Source of the DNA: a virus
IMG/VR virus record: IMGVR_UViG_3300030060_003743
Span: 1-61,212 of that record
Strand: one strand, 5' to 3'
DNA length: 61,212 bases
The notes beneath the pieces were generated by a model. The model made no database searches, had not been told where the DNA came from, and was given only the letters and a program-made list of their open reading frames with translations. This document shows, piece by piece, positions 2,215 to 53,971 of this stretch (positions are counted from its first letter, which is position 1; each line of letters begins with the position of its first letter). The position numbers and the translations under genes were made by a program.

Positions 2215-3057
2215 TTAAAATACAACTTTGTCTTCTTCTTTAGTCTCGGACTTTAGTTGCTTGCTTTGTGCCGTAATTACTTCTTCCACCTTATCAAAGT
2301 CAACTTTGTTGAATATGTCAAACTCCTTAGCACTTAAATAAAAGTCCTTAGTCATTCTACATATCTCTGCATCATCAGCTGACTTAACAGGCTCTAGATG
2401 ACGATCAAACTCTATGGACCAACCTGGCCAATTACCTTTGTTATTAGATTCTTGAACCGTGGTTAACCTATAGATAGTCGCCCAACTAGGTGGGTTGAAA
2501 AAGCCTTTTGAACCCTGAACTCTTTTAGATGCCATTTGAGCATTCCAAAGTTTAGACTTCTTTTTCTGTGTAGATTTCATGGTGATCAAAGCACTTTCTA
2601 TTGGTACATAATCTTCATTTAAAATGTACACAAAGTGATTGCCGGTATCCTCTACGTAATTACCATTGGGTAGTCGATCCCTACCATCGTCACCTCTTGA
2701 GGTTTGCGATAGTATTTGTGGATCGATATGTATGTTAATAGGTCTGCCAGGAGAATCTCCACGGTCAGCCCACTCGTTAAAAGTGTTAACATACAAACAA
2801 GGCACAACTAGCATACCGTCCTTGCCTCGGTAGATAGAACTGGTAACTTCATTGTAGATGTCACCAACCTTAGCATCTTCGTTATACTTTGCGTCTTGTG
2901 GGTTTAAGACAGGAGAGTTACTACTTAATAATTTTAAGATAGGTAACTTCATGTCTCGTGCGGTAATGTTTTCAGTGCCTTGACCAGCGTACTGCTCAAA
3001 GTCACTGGCGACCATTACTTCTCCGCCTTGCTTCGTCTTACTTACTGCTTTCGTCAT
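2215..3057 (-). CDS. Conserved hypothetical replication-region protein, 280 aa
   Basis: No catalytic motif was recognised. The protein begins with a short basic leader (MTKAVSKTKQGGEV), then a mostly beta-rich, tryptophan-containing middle (residues 60-200), and ends with an acidic lysine/glutamate tail (KEEDKVVF). An acidic tail on a beta-rich body placed next to a primase is the layout of many phage single-stranded DNA-binding proteins, so an SSB role is a reasonable guess but not shown. It sits between a coiled-coil protein (3067-3600) and the primase with gaps of 2-9 bases, so it is very likely in the same operon, driven from the promoter near 3631-3659. Confidence 0.7.
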   Translation of the reverse strand: MTKAVSKTKQGGEVMVASDFEQYAGQGTENITARDMKLPILKLLSSNSPVLNPQDAKYNEDAKVGDIYNEVTSSIYRGKDGMLVVPCLYVNTFNEWADRGDSPGRPINIHIDPQILSQTSRGDDGRDRLPNGNYVEDTGNHFVYILNEDYVPIESALITMKSTQKKKSKLWNAQMASKRVQGSKGFFNPPSWATIYRLTTVQESNNKGNWPGWSIEFDRHLEPVKSADDAEICRMTKDFYLSAKEFDIFNKVDFDKVEEVITAQSKQLKSETKEEDKVVF

Positions 3058-3066
3058 TTTTACTCC

Positions 3067-3600
3067 TTACTTGATAGTAGTTTTGTTTGCGACGTAAACC
3101 CCAAAAAGATCCATAGGAACCGAACGGCCTTTTTCAATCTCTGTTTTAACATAAGATTTAAGAGTCATTGGTTCCACTTTCATTTTTTGAGATACATTGA
3201 GTTTTCTTTCCACTAGCTCCTCTACAAGAGCAGTAGCTACCGCATCTTCAGATTTACCAAAGTTTAAAGAAACAATGTTTTTTATCATGTCCCCTGCATC
3301 ATTCTCACGAAGCCAATCAAAAGCTTCGTCTCTCTTAGATTCAGGGATCCTAGCAGCGTAAAATTGACTGACTTTAACAGTTTTACCGTCTTCAGTCTTA
3401 ATCATAGATACGCCAGCTTCTTGCATCAGATTAGGAATAACTTCTTCAGAAATAGTTTTTTCTTCTTCCTTAAGATGTTTTAGAACTTCTTCCGTTTTTT
3501 CTATTTCTTTCTGAGTCTCTAATAACTTGTTGCAAGATTTAGAGATGTCTTTCAACTTCCCTGTGTCTACCGATAAGGCAGATTCTGCTTCTAAGTCCAT
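3067..3600 (-). CDS. Coiled-coil hypothetical protein, 177 aa
   Basis: This is the first gene of the leftward replication operon. Residues 15-60 form a long glutamate/lysine-rich heptad-like helix (KEIEKTEEVLKHLKEEE), followed by a compact region ending near residue 170. No enzyme motif is seen. A strong ribosome-binding site (GGAGGTCCT read on the minus strand) precedes the ATG at 3600. The operon promoter TTGACA-N17-TATTGT lies 31-59 bases upstream. The position suggests an accessory protein for replication or recombination; nothing in the sequence fixes its function. Confidence 0.68.
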   Translation of the reverse strand: MDLEAESALSVDTGKLKDISKSCNKLLETQKEIEKTEEVLKHLKEEEKTISEEVIPNLMQEAGVSMIKTEDGKTVKVSQFYAARIPESKRDEAFDWLRENDAGDMIKNIVSLNFGKSEDAVATALVEELVERKLNVSQKMKVEPMTLKSYVKTEIEKGRSVPMDLFGVYVANKTTIK

Positions 3601-46778: not shown

Positions 46779-48254
46779 TTAATAGTACCTATATTCTTTA
46801 GGGGGACGATCTTCATCGTCTCTATAGTCTGAGTATAACTCAACAAAGTTTCCTTGGCGATACCTTAGTATTGCTTGAGTCGTGGAATCAACATAGTCAT
46901 CGTTAGCGCCATGCGGAAAAGCCGCACATTCATCAATCACATCTTCCGCAAATTTTTCACCATATGGGTACCACACTGCACCACTTTCAAAGACGGGTGC
47001 ACAACTGTTCACTCTCGTATGTTTGTCATTCCCTCTGGTTGGGGTAAATGGCACCACTGGAATACCCATGCGCCTAAACTCTTGGGTCAATGGTTCACCA
47101 GATGCTTTTTGCTCGACGATGATTGTTTCTGGTTCCCAGTATTTGTGAGCGTCCAACGCCACTGCCTTAAGTTCTGGAAAATCGTATTTACCACGAATCG
47201 CATCTAACAAAATAATATTCGGCGCACCACCCTCTTCAGGAAAAAATACACCCCATGTGGTAATCGCAGAATAGTCTGCCGTTTCTTTTTTTGAAAAGGC
47301 TGTATCATAACTTTGAATAACATGTTGTAGCATGGGCAAACCTTCTTTCTCCCAAGGTCGCCACCAATCTCGTTTAAGTATCGCACCCTCTTCTGAGGTT
47401 GGTTCTTGCATATATTGTGCTGACCAGTTTCGAATTGGAATACTTGCTTTAATTTTTTCTAATTCTTCTAGTTCCCAATACTCAGGCCAAACTGGGTTCC
47501 CTGAGTCGAGAATCGCTGGAAAAGAAACTTGTCGCCAAGTGTCCGCTTTGGGTTCGGTTTGAGCCTTCAACAGTCTACCTGTTAAATCGTCCTCGGCCCA
47601 ACGAGTCATGACCACCAAAATCGAACCGCCAGGTTGCAAACGTTGTCGGGGTCCTGAAGTGTACCATTCGTACGCACGCTCCATGGCAGTATCAGACATA
47701 GAATCTTGTTCCGTGTGTGGATCATCAATAATCAGTAAGTCCGCACCACGACCCGTGATGGACGAACCAACACCCGCAGCATAGTATTCACCACCTTGAT
47801 TAGTTTCCCACCTACCTTTGGCTTTAGAGTCCTCACGCAGTTTCACATCGCCAAATATTTGTTTGTATTCTGGTGAATCAATAATGTTACGAACCTTAGC
47901 TCCGAACCTTGCCGCAAGTTCTGTATTGTGCGAGACCTGCATAATTTTTAATTTTGGATACTTACCAATAATCCAAGCAGGGTAGTATACAGAAGCAAAT
48001 TCAGATTTAGTATGTCTAGGGGGCATGTTGATAATGAGCCTCCCTTTTCTTTGATCTGCTATATCTGTAAATTCTTTTGCAATAATCTGATGATGACCCC
48101 ATTCTTCAGGCTTTTTTGATTTTCTACAAATAAAATCAGGCCATACCTCTTGCACAAAAGCTAAAAAATTATCCTGACAAAGTTTAATATGCTGTATCCA
48201 AAGTTTTTCTACTTGGAGCCTTAATTGTTCGGTGGTCATTAGTTCCGTTTGCAT
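46779..48254 (-). CDS. Terminase large subunit, 491 aa
   Basis: The packaging motor. ATPase Walker A-like PPRHTKS at about residues 78-84, Walker B LLIIDDPH near 176-183, a motif III-type VMTRWAEDDLTG, then the nuclease domain with SYDTAFSKKETADYSA (metal Asp), VEQKASGEP and a terminal NDDYVDSTTQAILR. Length is normal. The start may be 48254 or an internal ATG at 48239 with GGAA upstream; a TATAAT box sits only seven bases before 48254. The small subunit is about 5 kb away at 53471. Confidence 0.93.
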   Translation of the reverse strand: MQTELMTTEQLRLQVEKLWIQHIKLCQDNFLAFVQEVWPDFICRKSKKPEEWGHHQIIAKEFTDIADQRKGRLIINMPPRHTKSEFASVYYPAWIIGKYPKLKIMQVSHNTELAARFGAKVRNIIDSPEYKQIFGDVKLREDSKAKGRWETNQGGEYYAAGVGSSITGRGADLLIIDDPHTEQDSMSDTAMERAYEWYTSGPRQRLQPGGSILVVMTRWAEDDLTGRLLKAQTEPKADTWRQVSFPAILDSGNPVWPEYWELEELEKIKASIPIRNWSAQYMQEPTSEEGAILKRDWWRPWEKEGLPMLQHVIQSYDTAFSKKETADYSAITTWGVFFPEEGGAPNIILLDAIRGKYDFPELKAVALDAHKYWEPETIIVEQKASGEPLTQEFRRMGIPVVPFTPTRGNDKHTRVNSCAPVFESGAVWYPYGEKFAEDVIDECAAFPHGANDDYVDSTTQAILRYRQGNFVELYSDYRDDEDRPPKEYRYY

Positions 48255-48339: not shown

Positions 48340-48359
48340 GCGTTTTCGTTATCGGGAAA
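48340..48359 (-). repeat. Repeat family A, partial unit (A0)
   Basis: A single right-hand half, GCGT-N8-TCGGGAAA, upstream of the terminase gene. The left TTCCCG arm is not evident. The spacing is exactly eight bases as in the other eight copies. Confidence 0.6.
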
Positions 48360-48370
48360 ATCCAAAAAAC

Positions 48371-48400
48371 AAAAAAAAGGCTCATTCGAAAATGAGCCTT
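48371..48400 (-). terminator. Intrinsic terminator of the 48459-48925 operon
   Basis: On the minus strand a perfect 10-bp stem AAGGCTCATT/AATGAGCCTT with a TTCG tetraloop is followed by T8. UUCG tetraloops are exceptionally stable, making this the strongest terminator in the window. It separates the short genes from the terminase promoter. Confidence 0.93.
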
Positions 48401-48408
48401 GCAGAAAT

Positions 48409-48439
48409 GGTGGTTATTCGGGGATATTGAATAACCACC
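48409..48439 (-). other. Second perfect hairpin beside the terminator
   Basis: GGTGGTTATTC (48409-48419) is a perfect 11-bp complement of GAATAACCACC (48429-48439), loop 9 bases. No T run follows directly; the terminator's stem starts ten bases later on the minus strand. Two stable hairpins in a row may protect the 3' end of the message or act as a regulator. Confidence 0.65.
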
Positions 48440-48458
48440 CTGCCAAAATCAATTAGCT

Positions 48459-48617
48459 TTATTGATGTTTATCCTCTAATTTTTCCATTAGTTTTTTTTC
48501 TAATCCTTCGTAAAAGTTTTCCCATATATTTCTAGGTACACTTGAAAGACGCATATCCTTTTTAGCCTTTGCAATATATCTTTTTATTTTCTTTTTTTCT
48601 TTTTCGTATTCGTTCAT
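48459..48617 (-). CDS. Small charged protein, 52 aa
   Basis: ATG at 48617 overlaps the preceding stop as ATGA; the frame runs to TAA at 48459. The product is a Lys/Glu-rich helical peptide (MNEYEKEKKKIKRYIAKAKK start). Followed by the two hairpins. No family. Confidence 0.6.
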   Translation of the reverse strand: MNEYEKEKKKIKRYIAKAKKDMRLSSVPRNIWENFYEGLEKKLMEKLEDKHQ

Positions 48618-48925
48618 TCTTCCCCCTCAACAATTATGTCATTATTGGTATTTTCTTGCGTGATGAGTAACTTATCTTTTATAGGTTTTAATATCATCAT
48701 TATATGTAACATCAAGTCTTGCGATTGATTAGTACCCTGATACTTAATGCAATTTTCAGTTACTATTTTTTCAAGTAATCCAAAAAGTGTTATGTAGTCT
48801 AATTGGTCATTTTCAATTACACCTTGAATTGCTTGTTCAATATCCTGTGTATTTCTTAATTGACTTTCACAAAATTCGACAAGGTCAAACCCATTGTTTG
48901 TATTTCTATCATTATTATTTGGCAT
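48614..48925 (-). CDS. Hypothetical acidic helical protein, 103 aa
   Basis: Asn/Gln/Glu-rich and helical (QDIEQAIQGVIENDQL; ILKPIKDKLL) with no recognised motif. The start has the conserved leader ATTAATCAACATTGGG ten bases upstream, shared with other short genes of this region. Function unknown. Confidence 0.6.
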   Translation of the reverse strand: MPNNNDRNTNNGFDLVEFCESQLRNTQDIEQAIQGVIENDQLDYITLFGLLEKIVTENCIKYQGTNQSQDLMLHIMMILKPIKDKLLITQENTNNDIIVEGEE

Positions 48926-49053
48926 TTTATTTTCCCAATGTTGATTAATATTATCTAACCTCTTAATTATGGACTTATTAATATTAATTGCAATAGTTAA
49001 CTGTAATTAAATTTCAACACGAATGGACGTTTTCCCGCACCGAGATTTTGATG

Positions 49054-49125
49054 ACGTTTTCCCGACCCGTACCGGTTTTCTTTAATAGGCGAAAATTTAA
49101 AAAAAACGTCAATGATCTCGGGAAA
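49054..49125 (-). repeat. Repeat family A, unit A1
   Basis: Left arm ACGTTTTCCCGACCCGTACC and right half ACGT (49106-49109), N8, TCGGGAAA (49118-49125). TTTCCCGA-type arms are complementary, so the unit can form a stem with a large loop. The middle is AT-rich with an A run before ACGT. Confidence 0.85.
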
Positions 49126-49129
49126 TCTT

Positions 49130-49191
49130 AAAAAAACGAGCTCCTTATTTGCGATATTTCAACTTTCGGTATACTAGACTACCTCGAAAAT
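49130..49191 (-). repeat. Repeat family B, copy 1
   Basis: 62 bases nearly identical to 49694-49755 (60 of 62 match). It contains a T7-9 run on the minus strand next to GAGCTC and an AGTATACC palindromic part. It lies between unit A2 and unit A1, upstream of the gene starting at 48925. Confidence 0.85.
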
Positions 49192-49213
49192 TTTAAGTTT
49201 TAACACGAATGAA

Positions 49214-49281
49214 CTCCCGACCCGCACCGGTTTTCTTTAATAACCACAAGCCACAAAAAAAACGTAATCGATATCGGGAAA
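49214..49281 (-). repeat. Repeat family A, unit A2
   Basis: CTCCCGACCCGCACCGG at the left, ACGT (49262-49265), N8 and TCGGGAAA (49274-49281) at the right. It begins on the minus strand a few bases after the stop of the gene 49284-49637. Confidence 0.85.
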
Positions 49282-49283
49282 AT

Positions 49284-49637
49284 CTAATATGACGTTCTTT
49301 TTATTCTACCTATAAAGGGTGCGATTTTCTTGTTCACAAAATCTAAAACATCTTGAAAATTTTCTAATTGTTCACACGTTTTAGAATGACTGTAATTGTT
49401 AACCTCCATAATCGTAAATCTAGGACTATCTAAAAAACCTTGAGAAACTGCTTCCCGGTCTTTTAAATTTTTCTCATCTATCCAGATTTGCCACCCCTTG
49501 AAAGCGAACGAGGGACAAGCGTCATTATGCCATGATGAATTAATCCACTGATCCGGCAAATCGATATCAGCAAAAGTTTGTTCCCACCCTTCAAGCATAC
49601 TACAGCTTTTCCATTTATTGTCTTGTACTTCTAGCAT
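49284..49637 (-). CDS. Hypothetical protein, 117 aa
   Basis: Start taken at 49637, where GGAGGTATAATA gives a good ribosome-binding site; a longer reading from 49676 exists. Trp-rich with mixed alpha/beta (GWEQTFADIDLPDQW; FKGWQIWIDEKNLKD). No motif recognised. Preceded by block B2 and a TATAAT-containing promoter, followed by unit A2. Confidence 0.6.
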   Translation of the reverse strand: MLEVQDNKWKSCSMLEGWEQTFADIDLPDQWINSSWHNDACPSFAFKGWQIWIDEKNLKDREAVSQGFLDSPRFTIMEVNNYSHSKTCEQLENFQDVLDFVNKKIAPFIGRIKRTSY

Positions 49638-49665
49638 TATTATACCTCCAATGTTGTGATAGCTT

Positions 49666-49695
49666 ATTATATACATATAATGCGATATAAAGCAA
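49666..49695 (-). promoter_or_regulatory. Promoter-like region of the 49284-49637 gene
   Basis: TATAAT at 49666-49671 with a TTGCTT -35 about 18 bases upstream (49690-49695) on the minus strand. The predicted leader ends in ATCACAACATTGGAGG, matching the shared leader motif of this region. Confidence 0.5.
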
Positions 49696-49755
49696 AAAAA
49701 CGAGCTGCTTATTTGCGATATTTCAACTTTCGGTATACTAGACTACCTTGAAAAT
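49694..49755 (-). repeat. Repeat family B, copy 2
   Basis: 60 of 62 bases match copy 1 at 49130-49191. It is upstream of the promoter of the 49284-49637 gene, next to unit A3, giving the same order (A, B, promoter, gene). Confidence 0.85.
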
Positions 49756-49790
49756 ACAGGGTTTTAGGGCTTCAAAAGTTACGATCTAAA

Positions 49791-49865
49791 TTTTCCGGAC
49801 CTGAGACCGGGCAGGCTGCTTTTAATGCGAAAAAATCATAAAAAAACGTCAACTTTATCGGGAAA
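49791..49865 (-). repeat. Repeat family A, unit A3
   Basis: TTTTCCGGACCTGAGACCGGG left arm (slightly changed), A-run, ACGT (49846-49849), N8 and TCGGGAAA (49858-49865). The interval 49677-49976 around it has no gene. Confidence 0.8.
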
Positions 49866-49928
49866 TTTCAAAAAAAATCGGAAATGACAACAAAGATGAG
49901 TAAAAAGATAATCCATAGACGAGGGAAA

Positions 49929-49946
49929 ACTAGCCCGAGGGCTAGT
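49929..49946 (-). terminator. Hairpin after the 49977-50261 gene
   Basis: ACTAGCC/GGCTAGT, a 7-bp perfect stem with a CGAG loop, followed on the minus strand by TTTTCCC. A short T run makes it a moderate terminator. Confidence 0.55.
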
Positions 49947-49976
49947 AAAATTAAAATTTCCAAGTATTTTCCCCTA

Positions 49977-50261
49977 TTAAATAAACATTTTGCCAAAATT
50001 GGAATTTAAAAGTTCTTTGACGAGGTATCTAGTGACCTTAATTCCACATTTAGTTTGATAGTTATAAGAGCCAATGATGTTTGCTACTATGGTAAACGAA
50101 TATTCCTTCATGAGATTAGAAATTTGATTTGATATATCAACTTCTTCGCACAAAAATTCATAAACTTTCATTTGCTCATGGCTTTTAAAACCACCTTTTT
50201 TTGCGATTGCGTCTAAACTAGCTTTATATTCTTTCGAATAATGTCTTACTGTATATGGCAT
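49977..50261 (-). CDS. Hypothetical protein, 94 aa
   Basis: Start set at ATG 50261 with TAGGGGGAAATACT before it (again the leader motif with AACATTAGGGGG). The helical, basic product (MPYTVRHYSKEYKASLDAIA start) shows no domain I know. Hairpin terminator follows. It may be a small regulatory protein. Confidence 0.58.
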   Translation of the reverse strand: MPYTVRHYSKEYKASLDAIAKKGGFKSHEQMKVYEFLCEEVDISNQISNLMKEYSFTIVANIIGSYNYQTKCGIKVTRYLVKELLNSNFGKMFI

Positions 50262-50335
50262 AGTATTTCCCCCTAATGTTTTTAAAATACACCCCATTTT
50301 ATGCTTTTTTTGCCAAAAAGTAAAATTTTTGACGT

Positions 50336-50377
50336 CCTTATTTGCGATATTTCAACTTTCAAGGTACTAGACCATGC
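50336..50377 (-). repeat. Repeat family B, partial copy 3
   Basis: The first 25 bases (CCTTATTTGCGATATTTCAA then CTTTC) are identical to copies 1 and 2; the remainder is changed (AAGGTACTAGACCATGCC). It is upstream of the gene starting at 50261. Confidence 0.75.
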
Positions 50378-50404
50378 CGATTTTTTTAATTTGACAAGAC
50401 AAAT

Positions 50405-50480
50405 TACCGGTTGTGCAGCGCACGGTTCTGGAAACTTAAACATGAAATCCAGTAAAAAAGGCGACAACCATGTCGGGAAT
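50405..50480 (-). repeat. Repeat family A, divergent unit A4
   Basis: Right half GCGA-N8-TCGGGAAT (50461-50480) keeps the eight-base spacer but has changed the ACGT. The left arm TACCGG is at 50405-50410. It includes the first copy of the 49-base direct repeat. Confidence 0.55.
50415..50463 (-). repeat. 49-base direct repeat, copy 1
   Basis: 46 of 49 bases match 50529-50577, the spacing being 114 bases. Carries a GCGCACGG word that also recurs at about 50681. Confidence 0.75.
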
Positions 50481-50528
50481 TTCCACAAAGACTGTCCAAA
50501 CCTCATCTACGGCCGTGAAAAAAGAAAC

Positions 50529-50577
50529 GCAGCGCACGGGTCTGGAAACTTAAACATGAAATCCAGCAAAGAAGGCG
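50529..50577 (-). repeat. 49-base direct repeat, copy 2
   Basis: Second copy of the repeat at 50415-50463, three mismatches. It immediately precedes unit A5. Confidence 0.75.
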
Positions 50578-50593
50578 TGGATCGTAACGGGAG

Positions 50594-50670
50594 TTTTCCC
50601 GATCCGCGGAACCTGGATGGCTTCTTTATATGCAAATCAATAATTTATAGACGTTTCTAGCATCGGGAAA
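50594..50670 (-). repeat. Repeat family A, unit A5
   Basis: TTTTCCCGATCCGCGGAACC left arm and ACGT (50651-50654), N8, TCGGGAAA (50663-50670). Followed by a GCGCACGG word. Confidence 0.82.
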
Positions 50671-50742
50671 TCCTAGTCCAGGCGCACGGCTTCAGGTCAT
50701 CGCTGAAAACCTTGTACCTAGTGCATTGTGCCAAGAGACTTA

Positions 50743-51141
50743 TCATTTTCCCGCACCGCGCGCCGCCCGATGTATTAACAAGATTAATTTTTCATCAAAG
50801 ACGTCAGCCGCATCGGGAAATTCTGCAATTAGATGCACGGCTCTCGAATCATGGACTTCTAGAAGTTTGAGAGCGCACTGCGAGGCATGAAAATTTAAGA
50901 TAAAAGACTTTCCACCAACTTGTCTATGCTTAATGTGCCAATTAATTTGAAACTTTGAAAGGTTGCAATTCTTAACCTCATTGGCTTTTAATTCTAACCA
51001 AAAAGAACTGCCATCAATACACCCATAGATGTCAGGTATTCCATTGATTGTAGAGGATTCTATGCGAGTTAAAAACCAGCTTTTTTGTGTCTTTTGAATC
51101 AGGTTAAGTCTTTTCCAAATTTTTGATTCTGTTATCTTCAT
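50743..51141 (-). CDS. VRR-NUC-like nuclease, 132 aa
   Basis: A small endonuclease of the VRR-NUC/Holliday-junction-resolvase-like PD-(D/E)XK group: E at the N-terminal helix (TESKIWKRLNLI), GIPDIYG with the metal Asp near residue 37, and FWLELKAN with the E-x-K at residues 48-50, then LSKFQINWHIKH. Such enzymes cut branched DNA. Its last codons run into the left arm of unit A6, so the gene's C-terminal 25 residues come from repeat sequence. Terminator of the upstream operon lies right before its start. Confidence 0.82.
   Translation of the reverse strand: MKITESKIWKRLNLIQKTQKSWFLTRIESSTINGIPDIYGCIDGSSFWLELKANEVKNCNLSKFQINWHIKHRQVGGKSFILNFHASQCALKLLEVHDSRAVHLIAEFPDAADVFDEKLILLIHRAARGAGK
50746..50820 (-). 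repeat. Repeat family A, unit A6 (inside gene end)
   Basis: TTTTCCCGCACCGCGCGCCG, ACGT (50801-50804), N8, TCGGGAAA (50813-50820). It overlaps the 3' end of the nuclease gene, showing that the element can extend a reading frame. Confidence 0.8.
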
Positions 51142-51146
51142 TCTAC

Positions 51147-51177
51147 AAAAAAAACCCCTGCAAGTATGAACAGGGGT
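51147..51177 (-). terminator. Intrinsic terminator of the 51222-52634 operon
   Basis: ACCCCTG/CAGGGGT, 7 bp perfect stem with a 10-base loop and T8 on the minus strand (51147-51154). Located six bases before the nuclease ATG, so that gene needs readthrough or a promoter of its own. A weaker GAGCT/AGCTC stem (51187-51203) precedes it. Confidence 0.85.
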
Positions 51178-51221
51178 ATAAGTGTTGAGCTTTTTGTTAG
51201 CTCGAGGATATGACTTAAATA

Positions 51222-51473
51222 CTACTCGCCAACTAAGAAATCTTCAAGTTTTTTTTGACTGGCAGATTCTATGACTTGGTAAAAATCTTCCGTATCAAAA
51301 TACGGACTGCTATGAATCCATTGGGTATTGTCTACCATAATACGCAAATCTTGTGCATTAAATCCATAATCTATGTACTGCCTTACAGCTTGATTAAAGT
51401 TTCCATGAATTATACTTTCGCAAATTTCATCAAACTGTTTTTGCGTTCTATATTCCTTTTTAGTTTTTTCCAT
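51222..51473 (-). CDS. Hypothetical small protein, 83 aa
   Basis: Helical and charged (MEKTKKEYRTQKQFDEICES start; GFNAQDLRIMVDNTQWIH middle). No domain was recognised. Small genes in this position are commonly early, host-take-over functions, which is a guess. A good GAGAGT ribosome-binding site precedes the ATG. Confidence 0.58.
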   Translation of the reverse strand: MEKTKKEYRTQKQFDEICESIIHGNFNQAVRQYIDYGFNAQDLRIMVDNTQWIHSSPYFDTEDFYQVIESASQKKLEDFLVGE

Positions 51474-51485
51474 TTAACTCTCCTC

Positions 51486-51836
51486 TTATTGTTCACATTC
51501 ACATGAAATTCTTGAATGTATATCGTCGTAAGCTGATGATAAATTATAGTACCCTTTACCCTCACACATTTTACATTCTATTATTTCTTTTTTTGTTTCA
51601 ATAGTAGCCATGTCATTAGGTTTGCGATAGCAGTAACCATAATTAATAGCTCTTAAAATATAATATTTACCTTTTGGTAAAACCTTTACGACATCATCAA
51701 AATCAGATTCGTTAGCGCCTATGCTTAAAGCTATTGAATCTAACTTTTCAGCATCTACTAGTACTAAATCACCCGATACGGCTTCGTCATGTTCCCCAAA
51801 ATTGTCTATAAATGTTTCGTGTTCTTTATCCATCAT
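51486..51836 (-). CDS. Zinc-ribbon-containing hypothetical protein, 116 aa
   Basis: An acidic N-terminal half precedes a C-terminal zinc-binding cluster: CKMCEGKGYY (near residue 89) paired with CECEQ at the very end, as in half of a DnaJ-type zinc finger. Suggests protein or RNA binding. Another DnaJ-like zinc ribbon protein is at 54967-55182. Confidence 0.62.
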   Translation of the reverse strand: MMDKEHETFIDNFGEHDEAVSGDLVLVDAEKLDSIALSIGANESDFDDVVKVLPKGKYYILRAINYGYCYRKPNDMATIETKKEIIECKMCEGKGYYNLSSAYDDIHSRISCECEQ

Positions 51837-51842
51837 TCCCCC

Positions 51843-52634
51843 CTATGCTATGCAGAATCCACCAGACATTTTACAAAACTGAATAAAATCTTGAACGTTT
51901 TCCACATCAAAATTAAAATCAGCTTGTGGCTGGTATTGGTCAAGTAAAGAAAACAACTTTTTCTTATCTTCACTTTTAAGTTTATCTTCAAATTGTTCAA
52001 ACGTTATTCTAATACCTAACGAATTATCAGCAATTTTATATTCTTGATTCATTTCATACTTACGAAATAGCTTTTCAATTTCAGGCATCACCTCTTGATG
52101 ATTATATTCTTTTGCTTTTTTAGTCATCTTTGCCCATTTTATTGCCTCTTTTTCAGTATGACCATGTTTAATTAGTGCTTCTAAAGAACTGGATATTCTT
52201 AAAACAACATCCTCTTTGACTTCATAAAAATCATTAGAATGCCAAGCATCTCTGTCTTCTTCTTTAATCTCTCCTGTGAATTTTCCTATGTACTCGGCTA
52301 GGGGATGCCAATACCAAACATTATTATAGAAATGAAAACCTTCGTTTTCATTTATAACTTTAGACATCATTTTTTTAATATCGTGTTGTGTTTGTTCAGG
52401 CAAACCACTAAGTTTTTTTACTATATTATCAAGTTCTTTTTTCATGTCTTCATCTTTTAAAGGTGTTCCATGAAATAGCTCTACGAGTGAAATTTGGCGA
52501 CCAGTTTTATTGTATGCAGTAAAAGCATTAAAGTTTATGTCGTGGTTTTCGCATTTGTCTAAAAAAGGTTTCCAAACTTTTCCTAAATGTTCCTGTGAAT
52601 AAGCAGGACTAATTCCAAATAAATCAAAACCCAT
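51843..52634 (-). CDS. MGFDLFG-type conserved hypothetical protein, 263 aa
   Basis: The opening MGFDLFGISPAY, the NNVWYWHPLAEYI segment and the HSNDFYEVK segment recall a phage/bacterial family with MGFDLYG starts and unknown function. The gene has the conserved leader ATTAATCAACATTGGGAG and a TTGTAT-N16-TATTAT promoter. Repeat units A7 and A8 are upstream. Probably an early gene. Confidence 0.65.
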   Translation of the reverse strand: MGFDLFGISPAYSQEHLGKVWKPFLDKCENHDINFNAFTAYNKTGRQISLVELFHGTPLKDEDMKKELDNIVKKLSGLPEQTQHDIKKMMSKVINENEGFHFYNNVWYWHPLAEYIGKFTGEIKEEDRDAWHSNDFYEVKEDVVLRISSSLEALIKHGHTEKEAIKWAKMTKKAKEYNHQEVMPEIEKLFRKYEMNQEYKIADNSLGIRITFEQFEDKLKSEDKKKLFSLLDQYQPQADFNFDVENVQDFIQFCKMSGGFCIA

Positions 52635-52668
52635 AATTATCTCCCAATGTTGATTAATGTGTACCCTT

Positions 52669-52696
52669 ATAATAGCAAATATTCAAGCATATACAA
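52669..52696 (-). promoter_or_regulatory. Promoter for the 51222-52634 operon
   Basis: TTGTAT (52691-52696), 16 bases and TATTAT (52669-52674) on the minus strand, about 35 bases before the ATG at 52634. The intervening leader carries ATTAATCAACATTGGG. It is divergent to the plus-strand promoter at 52889-52917. Confidence 0.55.
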
Positions 52697-52732
52697 GAAA
52701 TTAATACTTTTTTAAAACGCTTGACTTTCAAG

Positions 52733-52805
52733 TTTCCCGAGCGCGGGACCTGGTTTTTTCCAATAATCTAGTAATTTAAAAAAAGACGTAATTAATGTCG
52801 GGAAA
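52733..52805 (-). repeat. Repeat family A, unit A7
   Basis: TTTCCCGAGCGCGGGACCTG left arm, ACGT (52786-52789), N8 (AATTAATG) and TCGGGAAA (52798-52805). It shares 47 identical bases with unit A8. Confidence 0.88.
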
Positions 52806-52818
52806 TCTCACCACTGAG

Positions 52819-52880
52819 TCCCGGATCCGGGCTATCAATAATCTAGTAATTTAAAAAAAGACGTAATTAATGTCGGGAAA
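52819..52880 (-). repeat. Repeat family A, unit A8
   Basis: TCCCGGATCCGGGC left arm, ACGT (52861-52864), N8 and TCGGGAAA (52873-52880). The right 47 bases (52836-52882) are identical to A7 (52761-52807), so these are a recent tandem duplication, while the left arms differ. Confidence 0.88.
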
Positions 52881-52888
52881 TCCCACAG

Positions 52889-53236: not shown

Positions 53237-53474
53237 ACATCCTCTGTATATAGTTGTGTGGAAAGACCACACGTCTAACTCTTCCTGGCAAACTGAAGAA
53301 GAAATAAAAAAAGAAAAATATATATTAGCTTATAGTATAGGCTATTTACTTCATCAAGATAAAGAATGTGTTAAATTATGTAATACTTATACCTCTGACG
53401 AAGGGTACGGAGGTTTAGATCTTATTTTAAAATCTTGTATTGTTGAGATGTACGAAATAGAGATAATAGACTAG
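53205..53474 (+). CDS. Rightward small hypothetical protein, 89 aa
   Basis: Contains HPLYIVVWKDHTSNSSWQTEEE near the start and YTSDEGYGGLDLILKS near the end. The first part resembles small cytosolic phage proteins with VVWxDH; no function known. The ATG lies in the end of the preceding gene, and the stop overlaps the convergent small terminase stop by a few bases (53471-53474). If the start is instead the ATG at 53223, the product is six residues shorter. Confidence 0.62.
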   Translation: MKSYKKMKTSKHPLYIVVWKDHTSNSSWQTEEEIKKEKYILAYSIGYLLHQDKECVKLCNTYTSDEGYGGLDLILKSCIVEMYEIEIID

Positions 53475-53971
53475 TCTTTAACCTCACCTTGAATTATGAT
53501 TGTGTTAGCTCCAACTTTATCTTCAAGCTCTTTTAGTCTAGTTTCGAGCTGATCTCTAGACATTCCCTCTAAAGTGCTATGTGTTATTTCTTTCTTATCA
53601 ACATATTGACCGGCTAACTGACCAGACCTGAACTCTGCATTTATTGCTGCAGTATACTGACCCTTTTGCTCACTCCCATCTCTCAACCTTTCTAAAGTTT
53701 TATATCTTCTAAGTTTGTCTTTTTCATATTTGGCTTGTTCTTCACTCAACCTTATCTCTAAATACCTACACACATGCGGATTTGCCTCAGGACTAGTCAA
53801 CTTACTGGCCAAAGCCATAGCAGAATTATCACTCTTTGAACTGTAACCAGCTTTAATTAAGGCGTCTTTTTTAGATATAGTTCCCCAGTTTTCAACCAAA
53901 ATATCTACAAAAGCTTTTTGTTTTTCTGTCAAATCTTGAGAAGATCTGACTGTTTTTGGTTTTTGTGGCAT
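53471..53971 (-). CDS. Terminase small subunit, 166 aa
   Basis: A DNA-binding packaging subunit. Residues 12-70 form a helix-turn-helix domain: LTEKQKAFVDILVENWGTIS, KDALIKAGYSSKS, then SKLTSPEANPHVCRYLEIRL, the usual Terminase_2 layout. A coiled coil with SEEQAKYEKDKLRRYKTL follows. It should recognise the packaging site. The non-coding stretch with tandem TTTTCCTA words directly upstream is a candidate. Separated from the large subunit by about 5 kb, which is unusual. Confidence 0.87.
   Translation of the reverse strand: MPQKPKTVRSSQDLTEKQKAFVDILVENWGTISKKDALIKAGYSSKSDNSAMALASKLTSPEANPHVCRYLEIRLSEEQAKYEKDKLRRYKTLERLRDGSEQKGQYTAAINAEFRSGQLAGQYVDKKEITHSTLEGMSRDQLETRLKELEDKVGANTIIIQGEVKD

Follow-up and report, generated by a model that had tools for sequence, protein, structure and literature searches.

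The interval between the two terminase genes of a pelagiphage carries a repeated DNA element, in one orientation, that stands at gene boundaries and of which the place rather than the sequence is shared with related phages. Directly observed are the sites and their synteny, a word shared by the sites of one genome, a strand bias, a near-confinement to the interval and one displaced block of genes. We tentatively regard the elements, with a probability of roughly 0.4, as DNA-level boundaries of promoter-gene-terminator cassettes in a terS-terL island, homogenised within each genome by recombination and comparable to the promoter early stem-loops (PeSLs) of T4-like phages.

The window, by which we mean the whole stretch of DNA that was analysed (a virus record of 61,212 bp), belongs to an HTVC023P-type pelagiphage, its large terminase subunit (TerL) having 74% identity with the one of Pelagibacter phage HTVC023P and 63% identity with the HTVC027P protein. 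Pelagiphages of this group are very abundant in the ocean and have SAR11 bacteria as hosts. In the sense of TerL, which is the minus strand of the window, an element of about 75 bp consists of TTTCCCGA-N8-ACGT, a T-run (in most copies), an AT-rich stretch, a G+C-rich part and CGGGAAA (in most copies); its pairing arms are TTTCCCGA and TCGGGAAA. The features in the window are as follows.

46779..48254, minus strand: large terminase subunit (TerL)
48340..48359, minus strand: degenerate core GCGT-N8-TCGGGAAA, with the TerL start codon about 100 bp downstream of it
49034..49129, minus strand: element 1, with core at 49106-49125, T-run, G+C part and CGGGAAA arm; second TTTCCCG arm at 49031
49130..49202, minus strand: spacer repeat D2, copy 1, 73 nt
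49208..49285, minus strand: element 2, core at 49262-49281
49694..49766, minus strand: D2 copy 2, immediately upstream of ORF 49284-49676
49780..49870, minus strand: element 3, core at 49846-49865
50323..50395, minus strand: D2 copy 3, immediately upstream of ORF 49977-50297
50400..50485, minus strand: element 4, degenerate, core at 50461-50480
50585..50674, minus strand: element 5, core at 50651-50670; full-length match to a model of relatives only, E 0.02
50738..50824, minus strand: element 6, core at 50801-50820, within the g4 3' end; the most position-conserved site among relatives
50743..51141, minus strand: g4, small nuclease-like protein
51222..52634, minus strand: g5, g6 and g7, three small genes with two elements before and a terminator after them
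52725..52809, minus strand: element 7, core at 52786-52805
52808..52884, minus strand: element 8, core at 52861-52880; its right half repeats 50 bp of element 7 almost exactly
53471..53971, minus strand: small terminase subunit (TerS)

An earlier note on this DNA, made from its letters alone, had listed nine sites (48340, 49106, 49262, 49846, 50461, 50651, 50801, 52786 and 52861), and all were recovered, including the two with an altered ACGT (GCGT at 48340 and GCGA at 50461, the latter also with TCGGGAAT for TCGGGAAA). Seven copies match ACGT-N8-TCGGGAAA exactly and these two nearly, all nine on one strand; over the 61-kb window the exact pattern is found seven times on the plus strand and never on the minus strand, and a backward control pattern gave no match. 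With up to two mismatches there are ten matches, as compared to 2.56 ± 1.62 in dinucleotide shuffles, none of which (0/100) attained ten, and all nine plus-strand copies of TCGGGAA in the 61 kb fall within the nine elements. The restriction to the interval between the terminase genes that the note had described holds for every site in the window. It is not a mere consequence of gap shortage, since non-coding DNA amounts to 2062 bp outside the interval and 1850 bp within it; the nine gaps of at least 100 bp outside are all without an element. The one copy said to lie inside a gene end, at 50801, indeed overlaps the 3' end of ORF 50743-51141. The general claim of a non-random repeated signal in gene gaps, bipartite in appearance and specific to this phage, could be upheld.

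Two of the claimed details hold in part. The eight spacer bases are largely unlike each other, as had been stated, except that the last base is A or G in eight of the nine copies and that the copies at 52786 and 52861 belong to a 50-bp duplication. Complementarity of the left to the right arm is complete in some units and weaker elsewhere: in an alignment of eight units, two units pair at all positions (8/8) and three at 7/8, one unit reaches 6/8 and another two 4/8, and the site at 48340 is armless. A T7-type promoter was considered and rejected, ACG and GGGAAA being one base further from each other than in the T7 promoter, and the part between being unconserved. Reading the sites as promoters of a single-subunit RNA polymerase would need a direction opposite to most genes, and no phage RNA polymerase was found among the larger window proteins scanned. 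An attC-like integron site was likewise rejected, as the arms misfit the attC consensus.

The conserved TTCCC and GGGAA arms, together with a G+C-rich part that may fold, could also indicate structured small RNAs, but this is highly improbable: no Rfam family scored above chance in the window or in four relatives, promoter-like sequences stand behind the elements, and none of the five consensus pairs showed a compensatory change in 18 elements from relatives. Covariation of the arms is thus absent from these 18 elements, TTCCC/GGGAA being the sole conserved pairing. The lack of compensatory changes supports a DNA-level reading, and the signal apparently works at the level of DNA.

Comparison with eighty loci of relatives, in which TerL is 82-96% identical, changes the description of the element. 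The exact motif is absent from these loci, and the 8-base spacer that had been thought of as fixed is not conserved in homologues, which instead show tandem 6- or 7-mers at the corresponding sites. In other viral contigs the exact motif in its 14-base version gave single chance-type matches only, a longer version and the spacer repeat gave none in the viral collection, and a 16-base tandem of CGTTCCCGTTCCCGTT gave, over all viral contigs, mostly single and mostly chance-type matches plus the known relatives. What is conserved, judging from the sequences, is the position of the sites and not the N8 spacing, which is peculiar to this phage. The words of the relatives differ from those of the window, one word being common to all or most sites of a genome (TTCCCGTTCCCG, TTTCCCGTTTCCCG, TCCCGTCCCG, TTCTCGTTCTCG and others), and in 8-mer counts of the interval a single word was strongly over-represented in each of many relatives (TTCCCGTT, TTTCCCGT, CCGTCCCG, TTCTCGTT and others). 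The signal had been suggested to be phage-specific, which turns out to be more apt than the sequence alone could reveal, in that the word differs by genome. In L176 and L173 two words are mixed, and in a few relatives, e.g. L131, no word was recognised.

A sequence model built from 18 elements of six relatives, with the window elements excluded, gave 90 matches at E ≤ 0.05 in 83 relative loci, 88 of them in the TerL sense, a count that includes the seeds of the model, which match by construction. When both strands of the 61-kb window were searched, its top two matches were elements 5 (E 0.02) and 6 (E 0.15) on the expected strand, which supports homology between the elements of the window and those of the relatives, the individual scores being modest. 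Syntenic sites occur at the g4 3' end, ahead of genes B, C and the g7-like D, and behind D; in several relatives a lone TTCCCG stands some 100 bp ahead of TerL, which matches the place of window site 48340. In cultured HTVC023P (L207, 470-568 and 2927-3090), three tandem 33-bp units stand behind the TerS gene and related units behind the g4 homologue.

The clearest case is the end of g4, a gene with weak similarity to phage helicase, endonuclease and Holliday-junction-resolvase families and with a homologue in 56 of the 83 relative loci (tblastn). A similar coding stretch is followed here by each phage's own word in frame: AATCATA repeats in L150 and L155, an 18-bp repeat of CTACCAGATAGT in L157 and L160, seen at this site only, and a GCTTG repeat in HTVC027P, words that are tied to the TTCCCG element by position and repetition and not by sequence similarity. 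The word of each lineage supplies the codons for the C-terminal tail of the g4 protein (as in the window, L127, L150, L157, L182 and L192), so that this tail is wholly different between phages with the remainder conserved.

In whole contigs and in named phages the words are almost wholly limited to one strand and to the terS-terL interval. In whole contigs TTCCCGTTCCCG was found 41 times and CCCGNNTCCCG 23 times, on one strand per contig and at positions compatible with the interval upstream of TerL. HTVC027P, of which the own word is GCTTGAAGCTTG, has 16 of its 17 GCTTG tandems inside the interval, and 023Pt_psg01 has all five copies of GGGCCCACCC there. In both, word direction follows TerL even beside genes on the opposite strand.

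The main rival reading is that of multi-site operators or insulators, in which a putative phage DNA-binding protein would bind its own word at each boundary and control or block transcription of the island. We consider this possible but on balance doubtful. Short asymmetric words in a single orientation, in gene gaps, several per genome and with a lineage-specific consensus are what has been published for stoperators (PMC6550527), and the elements usually lead into a promoter-like stretch with a common TTATCCGATAA-like motif. Furthermore, HTVC023P and HTVC027P have the host HTCC1062 in common but not the word, so that a recogniser, if any, should be phage-encoded. However, a DNA-binding domain was found in none of the island proteins scanned, the sites lie within about 5 kb and not genome-wide, and their orientation follows TerL in HTVC027P and 023Pt_psg01 despite opposed neighbouring genes. 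When 14 genomes were searched for a protein that changes with the word, a replication-module pair (window 3067-3600 and 2215-3057) gave the strongest split; this best co-varying module fits the words in one clade only and beyond it does not track them, and same-word and different-word pairs overlap. These proteins (window 2215-3600), Pam3 gp33-like and gp34-like, share only 45% and 31% identity with those of the phage of L127, in spite of 96% identity in TerL. An acidic tail with PF, like that of single-strand binding proteins, closes several of the gp34-like members.

In the gaps of relatives, a terminator is often followed by the element or elements, then in some gaps by a palindromic block, and finally by a promoter-like sequence bearing the TTATCCGATAA-like motif and the gene, an order judged by eye in 28 downstream stretches; the promoter-like sequences thus follow the elements and lie outside the repeated core. 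D2 copy 1 of the window is similar to the AGGTAGTnTAGTACCT block that separates element and promoter in relatives. In promoter-like sequences of the island, the TTATCCGATAA motif is inverted and found between the -35 and -10 hexamers or shortly after them (L182, L191, L167, L181 and L186; gaps before B, C, D and E), and it is a probable operator of a phage regulator. It is quite unlikely that the elements themselves are intrinsic transcription terminators. Among 60 elements of relatives, 11 indeed have a strong hairpin (< -8 kcal/mol) before a T-run, as compared to 1.24 in shuffles, and some of these hairpins are formed by the word itself, but none of the nine window elements has one, and several sites have, ahead of the element, a terminator-like hairpin that is distinct from it.

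The place between the terminase genes, and the polar, iteron-like arrangement of repeats with a T-run (an A-tract on the other strand), would also suit a packaging or replication signal, i.e. binding sites of terminase or an initiator. The earlier note had named an origin or a packaging signal as possibilities, and neither found support: GC skew does not switch at the interval, and the N-terminal, DNA-binding region of TerS is much alike in phages of different words. Co-evolution of TerS and word was likewise not supported, and TerS does not follow the word. L131, in which no word was recognised, has a TerL that is 94% identical, and the sites are scattered over gene gaps across several kb. 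We thus regard a role in packaging or replication as unlikely.

The cassette-boundary reading is favoured because of three observations: a displaced g7-g6-g5 block, the duplicated elements of the window and the likeness of sites within a genome. In six relatives the g8-g4 gap is about 45-60 bp and element-free, and in four of these the g7 homologue is found behind g4. The window has, between g8 and g4, two elements, g7, g6, g5 and a terminator; similarity on the g8 side fades about 20 bp ahead of the first element, and the T-run of the terminator ends just before the g4 start. The displaced block has its elements at the upstream edge. At 51154-51177 the T-run of this intrinsic terminator stops a few bases short of the g4 start codon, so that no space is left for a promoter or ribosome-binding site before g4. 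Copies shared between sites in the window comprise the almost exact 50-bp duplicate, a 68-bp pair at 84% and three copies of the 73-bp spacer. Within-genome likeness in ten genomes was 13.77 for the core (10.9 ± 0.32 in site-preserving shuffles) and 12.77 for the 80-bp flank behind the core (10.02 ± 0.47), values attained in 0 of 2000 shuffles; this test gives inflated results because the genomes are related and the cores were chosen by a pattern.

In the TerL sense, a typical unit would run from one or more elements to a promoter, one or a few genes, often a terminator, and the next element. Copies could recombine within a single replicating pool or from one co-infecting phage to another, which could move such cassettes and could also copy the word between sites; by such copying the sites of one genome would converge on one word and lineages would drift apart. 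We infer that cassettes are moved and homogenised by recombination between elements, and that the elements do not act as transcribed signals. On the other hand, the displaced block is bordered by elements on one side only, gene order is mostly unchanged in close pairs, and recombination alone leaves unexplained both the single strand and the fixed places that persist despite outright replacement of the word. A lineage-private address system, in which a phage-encoded factor reads the boundary word, word and factor change together, and exchange or expression takes place only within a word group, is not very likely; if true, it would constitute an isolation barrier between co-infecting pelagiphages. 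Shared places with lineage-private sequence offer a handle on the gain, loss and expression of accessory genes in pelagiphages, and cultured HTVC023P and HTVC027P make the readings of the element testable.

A narrow search of the open literature yielded no description of the elements; in a paper on 80 HTVC023P-type genomes (PMC9599517) the word 'intergenic' is not used and no mention of 'repeat' concerns them. None of the known systems with which they were compared fits fully. The core of PeSLs is a promoter plus a stem-loop, whereas that of the pelagiphage elements is a short, often tandem word, which moreover varies by genome at shared places. Nor are the pelagiphage elements regularly terminators (stem-loop terminator in 0/9 in the window and 11/60 in relatives). 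PeSLs are also referred to as 'mobile regulatory cassettes', and the likeness lies in repeated composite elements that stand, close to promoters and terminators, in the gaps between the small genes of a variable island, and to which cassette shuffling is attributed (PMC4503421, citing Arbiol 2010 and Comeau 2014). Stoperators of cluster A mycobacteriophages are asymmetric and occur in one orientation at many sites, each phage group having its own consensus (PMC6550527). The pelagiphage sites share the asymmetry, the single orientation and the group-specific consensus, but they are limited to the terS-terL interval instead of being genome-wide, consist of tandem words in most relatives, and have no repressor candidate among the proteins scanned; HTVC027P is also reported to be lytic (PMC12753301). 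Since the elements lack a tested defining feature of each of the two systems, they were filed as neither PeSL nor stoperator. A third parallel is provided by the dialects of DNA uptake sequences, in which a short word is common to one lineage and replaced in another. Although the pelagiphage case concerns a phage, with few sites, fixed places and no uptake, it has in common with these dialects a word that is shared within a lineage and replaced elsewhere.
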